Source of the DNA: a virus
Direction: 5' to 3' (one strand)
DNA: 35,424 nucleotides
IMG/VR virus record: IMGVR_UViG_3300042298_000417
Location: 1 to 35,424 of that record
Below the pieces are notes generated by a model. That model worked only from the letters and a program-made list of their open reading frames with translations, was not told the origin of the DNA and searched no databases. Positions 3 through 28,624 of this stretch are shown here, in pieces; the stretch's first letter is position 1; every line of letters begins with the position of its first letter. A program made the position numbers and the translations under genes.

Positions 3-1796
3 AATTATATTGCTGAAAGAGAGTATTCTTTAAAGGCAATGGAAGGATTTATCAAAGGAGCAAAGGATAATAACCTTATTCTCAACTGGAATGATATTAA
101 GAGCAAGCCTCTTGTCCAGCAGATTAAGGAAGCTAACCTTGCAAGATCTCCGTCTGGTGACAAGTTTGAGACAGAAAGAAGAGTTATCCTAAACCGTCTT
201 AGTGAGACAAATGAGTTTGCTCAAAGATGGAATCAAAGAATGACTCGTATCGGAGAGTACATCTTTGATAAAAGGGGTATTGATGTCATCGATAGAATGA
301 GTATCAGACCTGATGTAGCACTAAGGTCTTTTGCTTTTGACCTAAAACTGGGTCTGTTTAACATTGACCAGTTTGTTGTTCAGGCTTCTTCTGCTTTGAA
401 CATTATGACTATCTCTCCAATGAATGGTTTGAAAGCTGCTGCTTCTTATCTTCCTCTTCGTATTGCAATGGTAAATACAAATCCTGATGTACTAAAAGCT
501 TTGTACAAAAGGTCGAGTGCTTTCATCGGTATGACTGAGAAAGAGTTCCTTGAGTCTGTCAATTACATGCAAAGATCTGGTAGATTTATTGTAAACCAGA
601 ATATTCAGGAACTAAACGGTACTTACGATGTTACTCGTGGTATGATCCAGAAGGTTAGAGAAGCTGGTAGAATCCCATTTAATGAAGGTGATCGTGTTGC
701 TAGACTGATGGCAACTAACGTAGCCTACCGTGAGTTTAGGAAAGCTTATCCAGTCCTCGATGTCAGTACCGATGTCGGGTTCAGGATTATGGATGACTTT
801 ATTACCCAAAGGGCAGATGCTCTGACAATGAATATGACTAGAGCTTCAGCCGCTTGGTGGCAGCAGGGTTTTATGTCTCTCCCGACACAGTGGTTAGGTT
901 ATCAGGCAAAGCTTGTAGAGAACATCTTCTTCGGTAAAAACCTTACTGGTGCAGAAAGAGGTAGGCTTGGCCTATCTCAGGTAATCTTGTTTGGTGGTGC
1001 TGGTGTTCCCCTTGGTACTTGGGCTGTAAACGCTTTTGTTGATGAAAGTTCACAGGGTATTGACAAGGATGCCTATACTCTGCTAAGATATGGTGTACTT
1101 GACTATACTTTATCTAATCTTATTAACGAAGATACTGCAATGTCTGGTAGACTTGGTACTGGTGAAGGTATGTACCAATTGTACCAAAATATTATGGATC
1201 AAAATTTTGTAGAAACACTTGGTGGCCCTGCTACAGCAATTGCTGTTGATACTGGTAGTTCTGCTATGACACTGGTAGGTTCTTTGTTTAATAGTAATAT
1301 TGCTATTACCCAGTATGATTTAACAAAGGTTCTTCGTAATATCTCCAGTATGGATAAGGTAGCTAAAGCTTACTATCTCATGCAGACTGGTGAGTTTATC
1401 GATAAGAAAGGTAGAGCATTGGCCGAGGGTATGAGTCCTTGGAATGCTCTTTGGAACTCTCTTGGTATCCCCTTCCAAGAAGTTCAGTTATACTACGATG
1501 TTCGTCAGGCTCTATACGCTGAGAGTCAGATGGTAAAGTCGGTGACAGATAGGACTAGAGAACTTATCAGATTGCAGAATGATTATATAAAAGAAGGTGA
1601 TTTAAGATCTGCTGAAGGTATTAGGGATGAGATACTATCTCTAATTGAACCTCTTACTTTTGATCAAAGAAGTAAAGTTCTTAGTCAGAGCAGAGAACAA
1701 ATTCGTACACTCAGTGAGTCTGCTATTATTCAAGACAGTAAGACAGCATCACAAGGACTCAGTATTCAAATGCAAAAGCTTAAAGAAGGACAATAA
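3..1796 (+). CDS. Large internal virion protein, 3' part (5' end outside window)
   Basis: The frame is open to the left edge of the window, with in-frame codons upstream of the first ATG at 39, so this is the C-terminal part of a longer gene. About 598 codons are visible. No catalytic motif is seen. There are amphipathic helical stretches, Gly/Ala-rich hydrophobic segments near 320-340 of the ATG-numbered protein (LSQVILFGGAGVPLGTWAVN), and a charged helical C-terminus. A very long helix-rich protein just before another internal virion protein and a virion lysozyme fits the ejected internal core proteins of podoviruses (gp15/gp16 role in T7), which carry DNA across the envelope. The family is inferred from position and character rather than a recognised motif. 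The next gene starts two bases after the stop. Confidence 0.6.
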   Translation, partial: NYIAEREYSLKAMEGFIKGAKDNNLILNWNDIKSKPLVQQIKEANLARSPSGDKFETERRVILNRLSETNEFAQRWNQRMTRIGEYIFDKRGIDVIDRMSIRPDVALRSFAFDLKLGLFNIDQFVVQASSALNIMTISPMNGLKAAASYLPLRIAMVNTNPDVLKALYKRSSAFIGMTEKEFLESVNYMQRSGRFIVNQNIQELNGTYDVTRGMIQKVREAGRIPFNEGDRVARLMATNVAYREFRKAYPVLDVSTDVGFRIMDDFITQRADALTMNMTRASAAWWQQGFMSLPTQWLGYQAKLVENIFFGKNLTGAERGRLGLSQVILFGGAGVPLGTWAVNAFVDESSQGIDKDAYTLLRYGVLDYTLSNLINEDTAMSGRLGTGEGMYQLYQNIMDQNFVETLGGPATAIAVDTGSSAMTLVGSLFNSNIAITQYDLTKVLRNISSMDKVAKAYYLMQTGEFIDKKGRALAEGMSPWNALWNSLGIPFQEVQLYYDVRQALYAESQMVKSVTDRTRELIRLQNDYIKEGDLRSAEGIRDEILSLIEPLTFDQRSKVLSQSREQIRTLSESAIIQDSKTASQGLSIQMQKLKEGQ

Positions 1797-1798
1797 GA

Positions 1799-3727
1799 AT
1801 GGCTCTATTTAATCCCGAGATAAGGACTCTCGATGGTTCTAACGTAGGTACATACTCTCCTCCAACTGTAGATTACTCCAACTTCTTTGCTGGTATCGGT
1901 GCTGCTATTGGTTCTATTGTAGAGACAAAGGGTAGAGGCGGTAGTATTTCAGAAGGAGATAAGAAAGCTCTTGCACTTCGTGATGTAACTTCGAATATCC
2001 AGAGAGCATATGAAATTGAAGACACTACTGTCCGTGCTACTACGCTGAAGATTATGAAGCAAAAAGCTTGGACTGAGTATCCTCAATACCGAGAGGATGT
2101 AAACGCTATCTTTGGTGAATTTACTGGAGAGATTTATACTGCAACTGGCATGTCTCCAGATGATCTTCAACAGGCTAATGCTTACAAGTGGGCTACTGAT
2201 AGTTCAGAAGGCCAATCTGCTGTAGCTCTTGCTAATTTAAAGGCAAAGGGTGATAGTGTACTTGCTGATCAGTTGATTAAAGATGCTTATTATAAAGATC
2301 TTTTGTATAAGAATAAGCTTTCTGCAATTGAAACTGAAACAAAACTTCTTGAAGCTGATGAGAAGAAAAGAAAAATTTTGTTTGAGACTAATGTAAGACC
2401 AACTCTTCAAGCAAAAGTTGATAATAATTTTACACAAGATATGTCTCCTGAAATTATTCAGTCTATTACACAAAAAGCTTTAGCAGATAAAGTAGATGTT
2501 ACGACATATCTTCTTGATAGTTTAACTGCGGCAAGAGCGCAAAGACTTGCAGAAATTACTAACGACATTAACAGGAAAGGTATTGATCCTACAACTGTTA
2601 ATCCAGAGTCTTTTATGAAACTTTATGATGCTGCTATTACTTCTTATACACAGAAAAAAGATGTTTTGTCTAGAGCTTTGAAAGGTAAAACAGACGAAGA
2701 TATCTCACGTATTCTTTCTCAAAATTCAAGTGATCCTTTTGTAATTAATTTTGCTTTAGGAAAAGGAGATGTTTTCTTTTCTGAATATATCACTCAAAAC
2801 CCATCAAAAAAAGAAGACTTAAAAAGAATTGGAGAAGCTAGTATCGGTTCTGCTGGTAATGGCATGACACCAACTGTAGCTAATAGTACTATGTCTTCGG
2901 GTACTGTTGGAGATTCTGCTGTTGCTTTCTCTCAAACGTATAGTGGTGTTGCTCCTGTTGAAGAGTTGCAGAAAATCTTTAAGGCTCCTCCAGAAACTAA
3001 GAGATCTCTCCTTAAAACGGGTATTAACTCTATTTACAATTATAAGTATAATGAAAATCTTCCAGAGAATACCGAAGCAGCAGCTAGAAATATTTCTGGT
3101 ATGTACGTAACAGCTTTGCCTGAGATTGACATTGAAGGTGAGGGTATTAGACTGTCTAATGTAAAGAATCTTTTAGCTAATAGAGCATTCGATACTATTA
3201 ATAGTATTAAAAGTACTAACCCTGAACTGGGAAATACTTTGTTTAATGCAATGAATACTTACACTATTAATGCTGCAAAGAGACTTACAGATAACTTTAA
3301 TACTAATATGGAAGCTATTAAAGATACTGATGCTGTTCCATTTATCCTTGAGATGGATAAGAATGGTAACATTGGTCTTAACATAAACCCTGAAGCTCTA
3401 AAGACAGATATTACTTTGAAGAAGGCTATGGGTTCTTATCGTTATGAAACTGTTAGGCAGGGTGCAAGAGGTTCTAGACAGGTAGAAGTTAGCGTTGCTC
3501 CAACTGAAACAGATCCAATGAAGATCCTTTCTAATTACACCTCGATTCTTAATGCTAATTTGTCTAGACCATTTGGTGAGTATAATAATACAAGAGAGAT
3601 TATAGATAATATCGAAGCTTTGAAAGTTATCGCCATGCAGTCGAAGAATATTCCAATTGAAATTAGGAATAGAGGATATGATCCTATCCAGATTATCAGA
3701 CAGAATGTTACAGTGATTGGTGAATAA
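1799..3727 (+). CDS. Putative internal virion protein (642 aa)
   Basis: A long, mostly helical, Ala/Lys/Glu/Asn-rich protein without recognised enzymatic motifs. It sits between the large internal virion protein and the virion lysozyme. Its start, MALFNPEIRT, resembles the start of the next protein (MGIFAPEIQT), and both have an IG-containing hydrophobic stretch about 25-35 residues in. This suggests a shared docking or assembly segment. The ATG lies two bases after the upstream stop, consistent with translational coupling. By synteny with podoviruses it is probably a component of the internal core ejected with the DNA. The function is inferred from context only. Confidence 0.6.
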   Translation: MALFNPEIRTLDGSNVGTYSPPTVDYSNFFAGIGAAIGSIVETKGRGGSISEGDKKALALRDVTSNIQRAYEIEDTTVRATTLKIMKQKAWTEYPQYREDVNAIFGEFTGEIYTATGMSPDDLQQANAYKWATDSSEGQSAVALANLKAKGDSVLADQLIKDAYYKDLLYKNKLSAIETETKLLEADEKKRKILFETNVRPTLQAKVDNNFTQDMSPEIIQSITQKALADKVDVTTYLLDSLTAARAQRLAEITNDINRKGIDPTTVNPESFMKLYDAAITSYTQKKDVLSRALKGKTDEDISRILSQNSSDPFVINFALGKGDVFFSEYITQNPSKKEDLKRIGEASIGSAGNGMTPTVANSTMSSGTVGDSAVAFSQTYSGVAPVEELQKIFKAPPETKRSLLKTGINSIYNYKYNENLPENTEAAARNISGMYVTALPEIDIEGEGIRLSNVKNLLANRAFDTINSIKSTNPELGNTLFNAMNTYTINAAKRLTDNFNTNMEAIKDTDAVPFILEMDKNGNIGLNINPEALKTDITLKKAMGSYRYETVRQGARGSRQVEVSVAPTETDPMKILSNYTSILNANLSRPFGEYNNTREIIDNIEALKVIAMQSKNIPIEIRNRGYDPIQIIRQNVTVIGE

Positions 3728-3729
3728 AA

Positions 3730-4809
3730 ATGGGTATCTTTGCTCCTGAAATACAGACAACTGGTTCTAATGCAGAAGCAGTAGCTCCTGCTGTAATTAG
3801 TCAGGATCAGTTTGCTAGTATTGGTCAAAGTATTGCTGATATCATTCAGGCTGTAACACCGTCTACTGAAAAAGAAAGTCTTATCAGTACTCAGGAAGAA
3901 GAGGAAAGTTATCCAGAACCTGAGATTACACCAGCAAGACCAATGTCTGGTCTTCCTATCCAGTCTCAAGCATTCCTTGATGCTATTGCTGCTGCTGAAG
4001 GAACTGGTGGTGATTACAATATCATCGTTGGTGGTAAGAAGTTTGAAGGTTACGAGCAGCATCCTAACGTAGTAGGAGTTGTTACACGGGCTGGTCCCAG
4101 TACTGCTGCTGGTAAGTACCAGATTACAAAGCAGACTTGGGATTATCTCCAGAGTAAGTATTCTGATTTGACAGACTTTAGTCCAGAGAATCAAGATAGA
4201 GCTGCTTTTTATCTCGCTACTGAGAGATATAAGACAAATACAAAGGGTAGGGATCTACTCTCTGATTTGACAATGGGTAATACTTCTTATCTTCGAGATG
4301 CTCTTCAGAAGACTTGGACTGGTATTATTGTTGATAAAGACTTTGAAGGTAGGTTGAATAGGAATGTCGAGTCAAGGACAACGACTATCCTTAAACCAGT
4401 TGGGTTTACAACAGTTAAGTATGTAAACGAACAGTCTATTAGAAACAAATCAGTTGCTCCTGAGTTGGAAGTTAAACTCGATGTAGCTATCTCTTCTGTC
4501 CTTGGCCCCGGTCATACAGTAGAGATTTTTTCTGGTGGACAGGAGAAAAAGGGTAAAGGTCAAAAGAGAACTGGTAGCATTCGACATGATGTAGATGATC
4601 TAGGTAGAGGTCTAGCAGCAGACGTAAGAATTTATAATCCTAGTGGTAAGCAAGTTACTGATAAGCAAGTTCTCAATAAGGTTAGAGACTTTTGGTTGAG
4701 TAAAAATTATGGGTCTGTCGGTACTTATATGCCGGGGGCTGGTATTCACTTTGATATCTGGACGAAGGAAAAGCTTCTTCCCGGTATGGCTAACGTATGG
4801 AGTTATTAA
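3730..4809 (+). CDS. Virion-associated peptidoglycan hydrolase: lambda R-like transglycosylase plus M15-like domain
   Basis: Residues 1-40 resemble the N-terminus of the preceding virion protein; about 41-70 is an acidic/Pro linker. Residues 79-200 match the lambda R (GH104) lytic transglycosylase fold: AFLDAIAAAEGTGG with candidate catalytic Glu90, YNIIVGG, AAGKYQ at 127-132 and SPENQDRAA at 151-159. Residues 245-359 form a second domain with GSIRHDVDDLGRGLAADV (His286, Asp298) and GIHFDIW (His340, Asp342). This resembles the zinc-binding His/Asp...His arrangement of M15 D,D-peptidases, with a longer His-Asp spacing than the usual SxHxxGxAxD. A glycan-strand enzyme fused to a putative peptidase, encoded among virion proteins, fits local wall opening at DNA entry. 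The first domain is a confident call; the second is moderate. Confidence 0.75.
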   Translation: MGIFAPEIQTTGSNAEAVAPAVISQDQFASIGQSIADIIQAVTPSTEKESLISTQEEEESYPEPEITPARPMSGLPIQSQAFLDAIAAAEGTGGDYNIIVGGKKFEGYEQHPNVVGVVTRAGPSTAAGKYQITKQTWDYLQSKYSDLTDFSPENQDRAAFYLATERYKTNTKGRDLLSDLTMGNTSYLRDALQKTWTGIIVDKDFEGRLNRNVESRTTTILKPVGFTTVKYVNEQSIRNKSVAPELEVKLDVAISSVLGPGHTVEIFSGGQEKKGKGQKRTGSIRHDVDDLGRGLAADVRIYNPSGKQVTDKQVLNKVRDFWLSKNYGSVGTYMPGAGIHFDIWTKEKLLPGMANVWSY

Positions 4810-4811
4810 TA

Positions 4812-5006
4812 ATGCCACTAACAAGCAAGGGTAAGAAGATTATGGCTGCTTTAAAAAAGCAGTATGGTGAGGATGCAGAGTCTGTCTTCTATGCCATGAA
4901 AGAAAAGCGTAAGATTTCTGGTGTCGAAGAAATCGATAAGGATATGGGAAAGAAGCCCGCTAGGAAAGCTGCTCCTAAAAGTAAGAAGACAACAAGGAGA
5001 AAGTAA
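4812..5006 (+). CDS. Small basic conserved phage protein (64 aa)
   Basis: The chosen start is the ATG at 4812 (MPLTSKGKKIM), three bases after the upstream stop; an in-frame ATG at 4797 would overlap that gene. The N-terminal half has the pattern PLTSKGKKIM...QYGEDAESVFYA, which I recognise as a small protein common near phage virion genes. The C-terminal third is a Lys/Arg/Ala tail (KKPARKAAPKSKKTTRRK) typical of a nucleic-acid-contacting or disordered tail. The stop overlaps the next start by one base (TAATG). The function is unknown. Confidence 0.75.
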   Translation: MPLTSKGKKIMAALKKQYGEDAESVFYAMKEKRKISGVEEIDKDMGKKPARKAAPKSKKTTRRK

Positions 5007-5781: not shown

Positions 5782-6747
5782 ATGGTAGCCCCCAGATCTA
5801 GTTCCTCTAATAAGAAAGACACGGAGAGTAAGTCTTCTGGTCCCGGTGGGGGTTCACTAAATGCTCCAGCTAGAACTACTCCATCTACTGGAAGAGTGTC
5901 ATCAAATACTGCACCCTCTGGTAGTAAGTTCGGTCCAAGAGAGAAGTCTACTCCAGTGAGCACTGCTCCTTCTAGTATGGCTAGAGAGAGTACGACAGAT
6001 AGGTTGTCTAGGTCTGGGGGTAAACAGATTACAGATAAGGTTGGTGTTACTAGTCAGAAGCCTAGATCTGGTCCTTCCATTGGTCCTACAGAAGCTGCTA
6101 TTTCTCAGCCAGCAAGACAGAAGACAAGCTTGAATGCTATGAAAGGAAGTCCTGCAAAGGCTTACACTGGTGTTCAAGAGAGGATTGGTCAGGAAAGATT
6201 GTCTCTTACTGGCAATCCACCCTCTTACTATCAAAGACCTATGAGTCAAAAGGATGTTGAGAAGTCATACCAGAGTATGAAGAACCCTACTCAAAGGGCT
6301 TATGATATTAATAACCCTAGCAATCCCGGTTTTGGTGCTCCTCAATATCCAAAGACACAACTTAAACTATCAACTACTGAGACAACAAAGAGTGTTGAGG
6401 CTAGTTCAAAAGCAATAAGAAACCCTACCCAGAGGGCTTACGATAAGAATGATCCTAACTATATGGGTGCTGGTGTTGCTCTTAAACCGGCAGTAAAGCC
6501 CGCTATTACTAGATCTCTAACTGAACAAAAGCCCCCTATACCTAAGCCTAAACCTGATAGAGTAAGTACTGCTCCTATTCCGAAAGCAAAGCCAGCTAAA
6601 CCAGTTGCTGCTGCTAAGAAGACTACTAAGGTAACTGGTAAGTCGAAGAGTAGAGTAGCATTCGAGAAAGAGTTTGCTGCTGCTAAAGCTAGAGGTGAGA
6701 AGGTCTTTATATTTAAAGGTAAAAAATATTCAACGAGGGTAAAATAA
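5782..6747 (+). CDS. Low-complexity Ser/Pro/Lys-rich protein with a short C-terminal motif (321 aa)
   Basis: Most of the protein is Ser/Thr/Pro/Lys-rich and predicted disordered. The segment NPTQRAYD occurs twice (about residues 168-175 and 214-221), each followed by an Asn-Asp/Asn-Pro stretch. The C-terminal 40 residues are different: SRVAFEKEFAAAKARGEK followed by VFIFKGKKYSTRVK. This is a charged helix plus a beta hairpin like the short C-terminal cap seen on several podovirus virion-associated proteins. A disordered linker ending in a small folded anchor would suit a virion accessory or adaptor protein. That role is inference. The stop overlaps the next start by one base. Confidence 0.7.
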   Translation: MVAPRSSSSNKKDTESKSSGPGGGSLNAPARTTPSTGRVSSNTAPSGSKFGPREKSTPVSTAPSSMARESTTDRLSRSGGKQITDKVGVTSQKPRSGPSIGPTEAAISQPARQKTSLNAMKGSPAKAYTGVQERIGQERLSLTGNPPSYYQRPMSQKDVEKSYQSMKNPTQRAYDINNPSNPGFGAPQYPKTQLKLSTTETTKSVEASSKAIRNPTQRAYDKNDPNYMGAGVALKPAVKPAITRSLTEQKPPIPKPKPDRVSTAPIPKAKPAKPVAAAKKTTKVTGKSKSRVAFEKEFAAAKARGEKVFIFKGKKYSTRVK

Positions 6748-7466
6748 TGGCATCGAAAGCAGAATATTTAAAGAAAAGAAAAGTAAGAAAACTGTCTGAT
6801 ATGATTAATCGTAAGTTTGATCCCGGTCAAGGAAACCCAAAGACTGTTAATCCTAATAAGAAGAAGTCAGTAGTCCCTAGAAAACCAGACTATCTTTCTG
6901 AAGCTGTACAGAAACTTGCTTATAAGTTTGGTCTAACAGATCAGCCTAGCGCACAGTCAGTTAGAGAAGAAACTTATAAAGCAAAACCAGAAGCAAAGAT
7001 TTTAGGATCGGTAAAGTCTGTTGATAAACCAACTGGTAAGAAAAGATACTCTTCACCTATTGGACCTCGTAAACCAAAGTATGATTCACCTATTGGACCT
7101 CGTAAACCCGAGGCTACTGCAATTACTGCTGGTCCCGGTAGAATGGGTAGTCAAACGGTAACTGGGCCTAAGAAAAAAGACTTTACTGGTTCTGGTAACG
7201 GTGGAGCAAGAGACTCTGGCCGTGTTGGTGGGGGCTTGAGTGGAAGTGGTGTTACTAGACCTTCTGCTACTGCAACTGCTGGTACTGGGACAAGCACTGG
7301 TGCTGCTGAGAAGATGACTAACTTCGAAAGAATGAAGGCAAGGCAGTATGAAAGAGAAGGCTACGGTGGTAGGGTTATGACCCGTAAGAAAGCTACCGAA
7401 CAAGTTATGAAAGAACGCCAGTACAAGTCACCGCTTGCTGGTCTGTTTAAAAGAAAGGGTAAATAA
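6747..7466 (+). CDS. Low-complexity basic protein with tandem SPIGPRKP motif (239 aa)
   Basis: Lys-rich N-terminus (MASKAEYLKKRKVRKL), a Gly/Ser/Thr-rich centre, and a basic helical C-terminus ending SPLAGLFKRKGK. SPIGPRKP is repeated in tandem (residues about 102-109 and 113-120), and the DNA of the two copies is nearly identical (33-base period near 7052-7108). It has no enzyme motif. Coupled to the preceding gene by TAATG and followed immediately by the next gene, it belongs to the string of disordered basic proteins at the end of the rightward unit. The function is unknown. Confidence 0.65.
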   Translation: MASKAEYLKKRKVRKLSDMINRKFDPGQGNPKTVNPNKKKSVVPRKPDYLSEAVQKLAYKFGLTDQPSAQSVREETYKAKPEAKILGSVKSVDKPTGKKRYSSPIGPRKPKYDSPIGPRKPEATAITAGPGRMGSQTVTGPKKKDFTGSGNGGARDSGRVGGGLSGSGVTRPSATATAGTGTSTGAAEKMTNFERMKARQYEREGYGGRVMTRKKATEQVMKERQYKSPLAGLFKRKGK

Positions 7467-7892
7467 ATGGTTACTGTTTTTGATATTCGTAAAGCTTCAC
7501 AGGATGAGAAGGCGGCTGTTGTAGACGAGAGATACAGTAAGCCTACAACTGATACTTCAGGTACAGCTACAGCTAGTAAAACAAATTCAATAGCAGATAT
7601 TTTTGGTGCTGCTTTTAAAGCTGGTGTTAATCCACTTAATGCTGCAATGGTTGCTATGAGTCCTTCTCGTACTGTTATGAAAGAAGGGGGAGGGACTTAT
7701 AACTATTACGAGCAGCAGTTTAAGAAGGATGTAAGAGCAGGAAAGTACGCTACTCCTACAACCCCTCCTAAGTCTCCGACTAGTACAACAAGTCCCGGTA
7801 TTAATGCTCCTGCACCGGATCAACCTTGGCAACCAAGTTCTATGAGTGGTCTTCAGGCACAGGAAGAAGATCCGTTGAAGAGGAGAAGATAA
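7467..7892 (+). CDS. Hypothetical protein at end of rightward operon (141 aa)
   Basis: Starts directly after the upstream stop (TAAATGG). The N-terminus VTVFDIRKASQDEKAAVVDERY could be a helix. It is followed by an Ala-rich stretch (SIADIFGAAFKAGVNPLNAAMVAM) that may be amphipathic, then a disordered Pro/Ser/Thr tail ending in KRRR. It is the last gene before the convergent leftward operon; its stop is one base from the end of the opposing gene. I do not recognise the family. Confidence 0.6.
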   Translation: MVTVFDIRKASQDEKAAVVDERYSKPTTDTSGTATASKTNSIADIFGAAFKAGVNPLNAAMVAMSPSRTVMKEGGGTYNYYEQQFKKDVRAGKYATPTTPPKSPTSTTSPGINAPAPDQPWQPSSMSGLQAQEEDPLKRRR

Positions 7893-27431: not shown

Positions 27432-27674
27432 ATGACTCAGGAAGAGATCAATAAGCTTCTCGATGAAGCAGCAGAGCGCGGTGCAGAAGCAGCCTTGAGA
27501 AAGGTTGGCTTGCATGATGAAGATGCTGGTAATGACATACGAGAAGTTAGATCTCTTTTAGAGACTTGGCGTGATACGAAGAAGACAATTAGTCAGACGA
27601 TTGCTAAAATTATAACAACCAGTATACTTGCTATTCTTGCTATGGGTACATGGCACTACTGGGGTCAGAGATAA
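27432..27674 (+). CDS. DUF6127-like small membrane protein, possible holin accessory (80 aa)
   Basis: EEINKLLDEAAERGAEAALR, then GLHDEDAGNDIREVRSLLET and WRDTKKTI, then one transmembrane helix (IITTSILAILAMGTWHY) and a short tail. The GL.DE.A..DI.E.R.LL..WRD.K pattern matches small membrane proteins (DUF6127 type) frequent in alphaproteobacterial phages, next to endolysins. It likely acts with the holin or anchors a complex at the inner membrane (inference from position). Confidence 0.7.
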   Translation: MTQEEINKLLDEAAERGAEAALRKVGLHDEDAGNDIREVRSLLETWRDTKKTISQTIAKIITTSILAILAMGTWHYWGQR

Positions 27675-27679
27675 TAATA

Positions 27680-28093
27680 ATGGTATTGAACGCATCATCT
27701 ATTAATAAACTGAAGAAGGTACATCCTGATCTAGTAAAGGTTGTACATCGTACTGCCAAACTAATAACTAACGTAAGTAAGGATAAGTCATTCGGTTTCA
27801 TTATTACTTGCGGAGTTAGGACACTAGAAGAGCAGAAGAAACTACTGAAAGCTGGGGCTACTAGAACTCTAAACTCTCGGCATATCCCCGGTAAAGATGG
27901 GTACAGTAAGGCAGTTGACTTTGCTGTCACCCTTGACGGTAAGGTTAGATGGGATTGGCCTCTATACTCAAGACTGGCAGAACTGGTAAAAGAAGCTGCT
28001 AGACTTGAGAATCTTACTGTTGAATGGGGTGGAGACTGGAAGACATTTAAAGATGGTCCTCACTTCCAATTGAATAAAATTAAATATCCATAA
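27680..28093 (+). CDS. Endolysin, M15-family peptidase (137 aa)
   Basis: Start taken at ATG 27680 (MVLNASSINKL), just past the previous stop; an upstream in-frame ATG at 27650 would overlap that gene. The zinc peptidase signature is complete: SRHIPGKDGYSKAVDF (His68, Asp80), VEWGGDWKTFKDGPHFQL (Glu115, His128). This is the L-alanyl-D-glutamate (VanY/Ply500-like) endopeptidase type that cuts the peptide stem of peptidoglycan at the end of infection. There is no signal sequence, so it needs the holin for release. A small holin-like gene follows. Confidence 0.92.
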   Translation: MVLNASSINKLKKVHPDLVKVVHRTAKLITNVSKDKSFGFIITCGVRTLEEQKKLLKAGATRTLNSRHIPGKDGYSKAVDFAVTLDGKVRWDWPLYSRLAELVKEAARLENLTVEWGGDWKTFKDGPHFQLNKIKYP

Positions 28094-28107
28094 ATTAGGA
28101 GATTATA

Positions 28108-28221
28108 ATGCCTAAAGATTCTGTTCGTAAAATCCAAAAACTTCTTAAAACACTCCCTGTTGCTAAAGCAAGTCGTGTAGGTCGAACTCCTGTAGTAAAA
28201 ACTAAATCTCGTGGAAAGTAA
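28108..28221 (+). CDS. Small basic protein in lysis region (37 aa)
   Basis: TAGGAGATTATA precedes the ATG at 28108. The sequence MPKDSVRKIQKLLKTLPVAK then ASRVGRTPVVKTKSRGK is a short amphipathic helix plus basic tail. A strong ribosome site and a location between endolysin and holin argue for a real gene. The function is unknown. Confidence 0.6.
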   Translation: MPKDSVRKIQKLLKTLPVAKASRVGRTPVVKTKSRGK

Positions 28222-28232
28222 GGAGAAATACA

Positions 28233-28397
28233 ATGAATAAGGAAATGATTTGGGGTGTCGCTCGTGCAATTCTTGCTGCTGGTGGTGGCTACCTCGTTGC
28301 TAAGGGCATGATTGATGCGGCTACTCTTGAGACTGTCATTGGTGCCATTGGTACAATCTTCGTTGCTGTCTGGTCGGTTTACGCCAAGAAGGCTTAA
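28233..28397 (+). CDS. Holin (54 aa, two transmembrane segments)
   Basis: AAGGAGAAATACA before the ATG. MNKEMIWGVARAILAAGGGY, LVAKGMIDAATLETVIG and AIGTIFVAVWSVYAKKA show two short hydrophobic helices separated by a turn with Asp-Ala-Ala-Thr, with a Lys-rich end. This closely follows the small holin type (Pam3 gp28-like) that forms inner-membrane holes and times lysis. It is adjacent to the endolysin and overlaps the next gene by one base. Confidence 0.85.
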   Translation: MNKEMIWGVARAILAAGGGYLVAKGMIDAATLETVIGAIGTIFVAVWSVYAKKA

Positions 28398-28624
28398 TGG
28401 ACTACATCAGTATCATACTCTTCCTCTTCGCCATTCTCGGCATTACTGCTGGTGCTTTTATGGTAGCAAGAAGTCCAGTATTCTGGATGGGTATGGGTAA
28501 AGAAATATTTAAAATAATGATTCCTATAATTATTAAAAGGATGCCACTGGAAGAAGAAGAGGCTTGGAGAAGGTGCCAGCTTCGAGGTGGTAGATGGAAT
28601 CATCGGACAAAGAAGTGTGAATAA
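28397..28624 (+). CDS. Small membrane protein of the lysis cassette (75 aa)
   Basis: One N-terminal transmembrane helix (ISIILFLFAILGITAGAFMV), a second partly hydrophobic region (IFKIMIPIIIKRM), then a charged tail EEEEAWRRCQLRGGRWNHRT with two cysteines. The R.P.EEE.AW.RC..RGG.W pattern recurs in small phage proteins near holins. It could be a spanin-like or holin-regulating protein; I see no lipoprotein signal or classic Rz/Rz1 overlap. Coupled by TAATG on both sides. Confidence 0.65.
   Translation: MDYISIILFLFAILGITAGAFMVARSPVFWMGMGKEIFKIMIPIIIKRMPLEEEEAWRRCQLRGGRWNHRTKKCE

Follow-up and report, generated by a model that had tools for sequence, protein, structure and literature searches.

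A putative virion lysin joining a GH104-like transglycosylase domain to an unnamed MepK-like domain

Phi29 gp13 is a virion protein that combines a glycan cutter with a zinc endopeptidase, namely a lysozyme with an M23-like peptidase. The endolysin R of phage lambda (GH104 lytic transglycosylase, 1am7/3d3d), which has sequence and a catalytic Glu in common with the lysin described here, is a single-domain lysis enzyme, whereas the present protein is a peptidase fusion and is encoded with virion proteins. A wall-cutting enzyme among internal virion proteins is found in T7 gp16 and other internal-protein lysins (PMC5380687), although the T7 transglycosylase is part of gp16 and the present one belongs to a separate protein of 359 aa with a predicted peptidase added. 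The cellular enzyme to which the second half of this protein bears most resemblance is E. coli MepK (YcbK, DUF882), an LD-specific endopeptidase according to PMC12729407, for which PMC9249393 gives a preference for 3-3 links.

The window, a stretch of 35,424 nt of viral DNA, encodes the two-domain lysin on the + strand at 3730..4809 as an intact frame from ATG to TAA. Full-length relatives were present in 9/9 IMG/VR loci and are 58-72% identical to it. On the same strand, an internal virion protein D-like frame (39..1796; C-terminal part, open at the window edge; phrog_12003, 4.9e-41) is followed by an internal virion protein of 642 aa (1799..3727) and then by the lysin, which starts 2 bases after the preceding stop and is thus, as the earlier note had stated, encoded among internal virion proteins. 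The position of the lysin behind an internal virion protein gene is conserved in the loci read. Directly behind the lysin lies a small ORF (4812-5006, beginning MPLTSKGKKIMAALKKQYG) that falls under the 80-aa listing limit, and at 5782-7892 on the late strand three ORFs in series are rich in Lys, Ser, Pro and Gly, for which no convincing family match was obtained. Comparison of window positions 1-24000 with the phage collection at the DNA level led to a single match, the ribonucleotide reductase of Lentibacter phage ICBM2 (Zobellviridae; 73% identity), and the likeness to a cobavirus at the DNA level consists of this one long match only. The phage appears to be of marine type and to carry the enzyme inside its particle; the carrier would be a podovirus whose ribonucleotide reductase is cobavirus-like.

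The first domain (residues ~78-200, 3961..4329, + strand) bore out the GH104 pattern that had been read from it before. Residues 78-166 matched lambda lysozyme (3d3d, E = 6.9e-11; 1am7, 7.4e-11) with Glu90 (3997..3999, + strand) aligned to the lambda Glu19, and the endolysin family phrog_90 matched the lysin at 5.2e-22, while a Pfam search with all 359 aa gave no hit. Glu90 lies in an SEGT-like motif and is invariant in 10/10 full-length sequences (the window protein and nine relatives). From this homology, cleavage of glycan strands by the lytic-transglycosylase mechanism of lambda R would be expected. A GH104-like match was also observed in Bordetella phage BB8 (L013 7001-7381), at the start of a gene for a gp16-like internal protein D.

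The lysin begins with a module (residues 1-43, 3730..3858, + strand) with a counterpart at the N-terminus of the internal virion protein encoded just before it (1799-1927, + strand). When an HMM of lysin N-termini was run against 524 ORFs (from the window, contigs G005 and G009 and part of ICBM2), three upstream proteins came next at 4.8e-9, 1.9e-8 and 0.0084, with the following ORF at 0.55; in the opposite direction the lysins were recovered at 4.7e-5, 0.0016 and 0.2, of which the third did not pass the threshold, and hhalign aligned the module of lysin and upstream proteins with a probability of 98.1%. The first ~43 residues are plausibly a shared assembly address and hence a candidate for virion packaging, which would probably place the lysin in the particle. 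No wall-cutting domain of its own was found by sequence in the internal virion protein D of contig G005. Lysis genes are located elsewhere, in a cassette at 27432-28624 with a DUF6127 protein that has a C-terminal hydrophobic stretch, an M15C-type endolysin of 147 aa (27650..28093, + strand; phrog_465, 2.9e-48; PF13539, 1.5e-8; 23ri, ChiX and LysECD7 at about 1e-25), a PF23987 holin (28233..28397, + strand; 3.1e-17) and further small membrane proteins. The same M15C endolysin was detected in contigs G005 and G006, which is 2/13 records searched, most of them fragments. Contig G009, in which the two-domain lysin is kept, has a GH19-like protein in the place of the lysis endolysin (L078 7076-7741; PF00182, 1.3e-4, below the curated cut-off), again beside a PF23987 holin. 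As a separate lysis endolysin is present, the two-domain lysin is probably not the enzyme responsible for lysis. A role as the lysis endolysin, acting via a holin and merely adjoining virion genes, might be proposed because cobavirus genes called endolysins adjoin internal virion protein genes (PMC6775973; ICBM2 map), but we consider it quite improbable given the complete holin/M15C endolysin cassette at 27.4-28.6 kb, the occurrence of the N-terminal module in a virion protein, and the fact that no holin-like gene was seen at 4.8-7.9 kb on the + strand. The corresponding position in ICBM2 is taken by gp34 (L072 6093-7355; 'endolysin, amidase domain'), which adjoins internal virion proteins and encodes an amidase, not a GH104 enzyme; it is annotated as lysis endolysin and has spanin- and holin-like genes beside it, and the role of this slot may therefore differ between genera. 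For the two-domain lysin, the best reading of sequence and gene context is a virion-associated enzyme that would act at entry.

The second domain (residues 229-359, 4414..4806, + strand) is predicted to be a MepK-like zinc peptidase. HDVDDLGRGLAADV begins at residue 286 and GIHFD at residue 338, and the motifs and residue numbers of the earlier note (E90, H286, D298, H340) could be confirmed. The predicted zinc ligands, all on the + strand, are His286 (4585..4587), Asp298 (4621..4623) and His340 (4747..4749). R285, H286, D298, H340 and D342 are invariant in 10/10 full-length sequences (window and nine relatives). In a larger set of 40 distinct domain sequences, from which one truncated row was dropped, both His and the Asp of the triad are kept in 39/39, and the motif is therefore not due to chance; the same 39/39 holds for the Gln of SGGQ and for the Arg that precedes the first His. 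The signature common to the 40 sequences comprises an Arg-Asn start, V[ED]x[FY]SGGQ, RTG-RH, GxAAD, GxG..YM and HxD/G...W, with HxD changed to HxG in 11/39. The family lacks the Asp/Glu that M15C enzymes have three residues before the last His, and a WGGDW + DxxH block present in seven aligned M15C sequences is absent from the domain.

AlphaFold modelling of the domain with 34 sequences led to a pLDDT of 95 and a pTM of 0.89, whereas the model of the full-length lysin (10 sequences; pLDDT 49) was too weak to use. Ply500, VanX, MepA and LysECD7 filled ranks 1-6 of a Foldseek search against the PDB (best E 8.1e-3, none below 0.001). VIA-align returned 50 rows, the first 34 of which were all hedgehog domains or M15/M74 peptidases, with the first unrelated entry at rank 35 and a maximum Z of 7.7. 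The three best hits in a viral structure library (query TM 0.86-0.89) were large, unnamed phage proteins; the name peptidase M15 appeared in several rows further down. The 34-member profile found Ply500 (0.0019) and LysB4 (0.019) in the PDB; superantigen rows obtained with a nine-sequence profile (E 0.024 and worse) were due to chance and gone with 34 sequences. The nearest solved structures are thus hedgehog/LAS folds, and the model predicts, with modest scores, a hedgehog/LAS (M15-type) fold, which agrees with the M15-like character claimed previously. No family of Pfam, NCBIfam or PHROGs covers residues 229-359. Searched alone against PHROGs, the domain gave no hit in 34/34 members, and none of the Pfam M15 models (VanY, M15_3, M15_4, DUF882) reached its curated cut-off for the window domain, VanY giving 0.011 at best, in 4/34 members, and DUF882 no hit. 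Judged by these searches, the domain family is unnamed in the libraries searched and would be an addition for annotation libraries.

The earlier note had also pointed to a His-Asp spacing longer than in M15 peptidases and had suggested that it marks an undescribed M15-related subfamily. The longer spacing is real (12 versus the usual 7) and reflects a five-residue insertion, VDDLG, at residues 288-292 (4591..4605, + strand). Among the 40 distinct domain sequences, the distance is 7 in 28, 11 in one and 12 in 11, the last being confined to the close relatives of the window protein, but a distance of 7 is found in homologues that carry the signature as well. The one relative with 11 (L059 517-1437, RHDVWNGYGWAAD) apparently represents an independent loop expansion. 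Canonical M15C endolysins themselves vary from 7 to 12 (spacing 12 in 4/7 and 7 in 3/7 of the aligned sequences), and the lysis endolysin of the window reads SRHIPGKDGYSKAVD, again with a spacing of 12, where its solved relatives are five residues shorter. Since both families vary in the length of this loop, it is no family mark; we ruled out the spacing as a marker and regard a separate subfamily defined by it as very improbable. What stands of the proposal is a domain that is unnamed in the libraries; its spacing as the marker does not, with 28/40 relatives at 7.

Alignment of the 34-member domain profile to E. coli MepK by hhalign led to a score of 34.3 (pairwise E 6.4e-5), with MepK H133, D140 and H173 opposite H286, D298 and H340, and only three lysins of the family itself ranked above MepK among 215 targets. 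The best sampled ORF without the domain scored 21.8 and the best of 60 MepK shuffles 18.2. A profile of eight MepK/DUF882 sequences gave a higher score of 50.5 (probability 94%, pairwise E 9.6e-8; ligands aligned), compared with 24.4 against seven M15C sequences; 60 column-shuffled versions of each profile (120 decoys) gave maxima of 20.6 (MepK/DUF882) and 20.5 (M15C). The M15C endolysin of the window alone gave no signal against the domain profile (score 18.0). Besides this whole-domain alignment, MepK and the phage domain share a GxG-Y...HxD...W ending; they differ in that MepK is an exported cellular enzyme with SGYR and SxH, where the phage domain has SGGQ and RH. MepK as a PDB query led mostly to leucine-rich-repeat chance rows and to no peptidase. 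At the level of sequence profiles, the domain resembles MepK (DUF882) far more than the M15C endolysins of phages. Neither kinship with MepK nor the fold fixes the substrate.

Hedgehog domains are zinc-containing non-peptidases, and they are the highest-Z matches of the domain model. As, in addition, no acidic residue (Asp/Glu) is conserved three positions before the last His, the domain might be a pseudo-enzyme that contains zinc, binds peptidoglycan and thereby anchors the transglycosylase, with no peptidase activity. We regard such a binding function as unlikely: the zinc triad is kept in 39/39, and MepK, which published work describes as an active endopeptidase, shares the GxG-Y-HxD-W end and equally lacks an Asp/Glu three residues before its last His. 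The C-terminal half is better read as a zinc endopeptidase which, with His286, Asp298 and His340 as ligands, would open peptide cross-links near the cut glycans.

Relatives of the domain were found in 58 IMG/VR loci and 15 named Rhizobium phage records. In the Rhizobium phages the domain comes after a PF18013 tail lysozyme in tail proteins, and in Agrobacterium phage OLIVR1 it is part of a structural protein adjoining the virion RNA polymerase. A Pfam scan of 20 IMG/VR proteins gave PF10145 and PF18013 or PF18013 alone in some, Gp5_OB or weak base-V matches in others, and no domain above cut-off in the remainder. The occurrence of the domain in tape-measure plus tail-lysozyme, Gp5_OB and base-V-like proteins, and in the OLIVR1 structural protein, speaks for the virion role. 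Six member queries against 50,697 phage records hit 15 Rhizobium and four Agrobacterium records only, counts in which some phages stand in two records and hosts are those of the named phage records; a control query with the M15C endolysin hit 798 records from many hosts. Three weak Rhizobium hits (RHph_I3_11, N3_19 and N3_13) were not counted, the one that was read being without the RH[DN] motif. Scans of genome collections with short peptide patterns of the domain, which are narrow, yielded no cellular relative. No description of the domain or of its fusion to GH104 was found in the literature, with subscription papers mostly outside the search.

The likeness to MepK raises the question of which cross-links would be opened. 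A study of 2024 showed LD cross-links to be inhibitors of lytic transglycosylases, the loss amounting to 50% in vitro for the lambda endolysin; with LdtE overproduced, E. coli was protected against lambda and P2, though not against P1, T4 or T5 (PMC11390936). In Agrobacterium walls LD cross-links make up roughly 30%, compared with 1-5% in E. coli (PMC11527210). As LD links inhibit lambda-type transglycosylases and the fused domain is MepK-like, the fusion would remove its own inhibitor. The peptidase half may accordingly be imagined as a MepK-like L,D-endopeptidase that removes LD (3-3) cross-links so that the transglycosylase can cut, a proposal that we put forward only tentatively and hold to be rather doubtful; the tail lysozyme that is its partner in Rhizobium phages may be insensitive to LD links, which speaks against it. 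If true, the fusion would let a phage counter a defence that lies in the wall, and the domain would be a widespread virion module in phages of LD-rich Alphaproteobacteria, attached to whichever glycan cutter the virion has. With a lambda-type enzyme and a domain whose nearest match is MepK joined in one small protein, it becomes testable how phages of naturally LD-rich bacteria pass the wall.

From the gene context, the N-terminal module, the lambda-R-like domain and the profile alignments, the lysin is likely a virion-borne bifunctional wall-entry enzyme with a GH104 and a MepK-like peptidase domain, and lysis at the end of infection would be left to a different enzyme, that encoded at 27650-28093. 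A similar arrangement is that of Microcystis phage Ma-LMM01 gp095 (lysozyme/metalloendopeptidase), in which a GH104-like domain is followed by a zinc peptidase and the gene adjoins a baseplate gene; its peptidase part, however, reads as M23/LytM (motif by eye), with a fold unlike that of the window domain. The tail proteins of Rhizobium phages RHEph12 and RHph_TM21B are virion proteins with the same C-terminal domain family (38-41% identity), but their glycan cutter is a PF18013 tail lysozyme and their spacing 7, compared with GH104 and 12 in the window lysin. Two-domain virion lysins are thus already known, and what is new here is the unnamed MepK-like domain together with a probable virion address.
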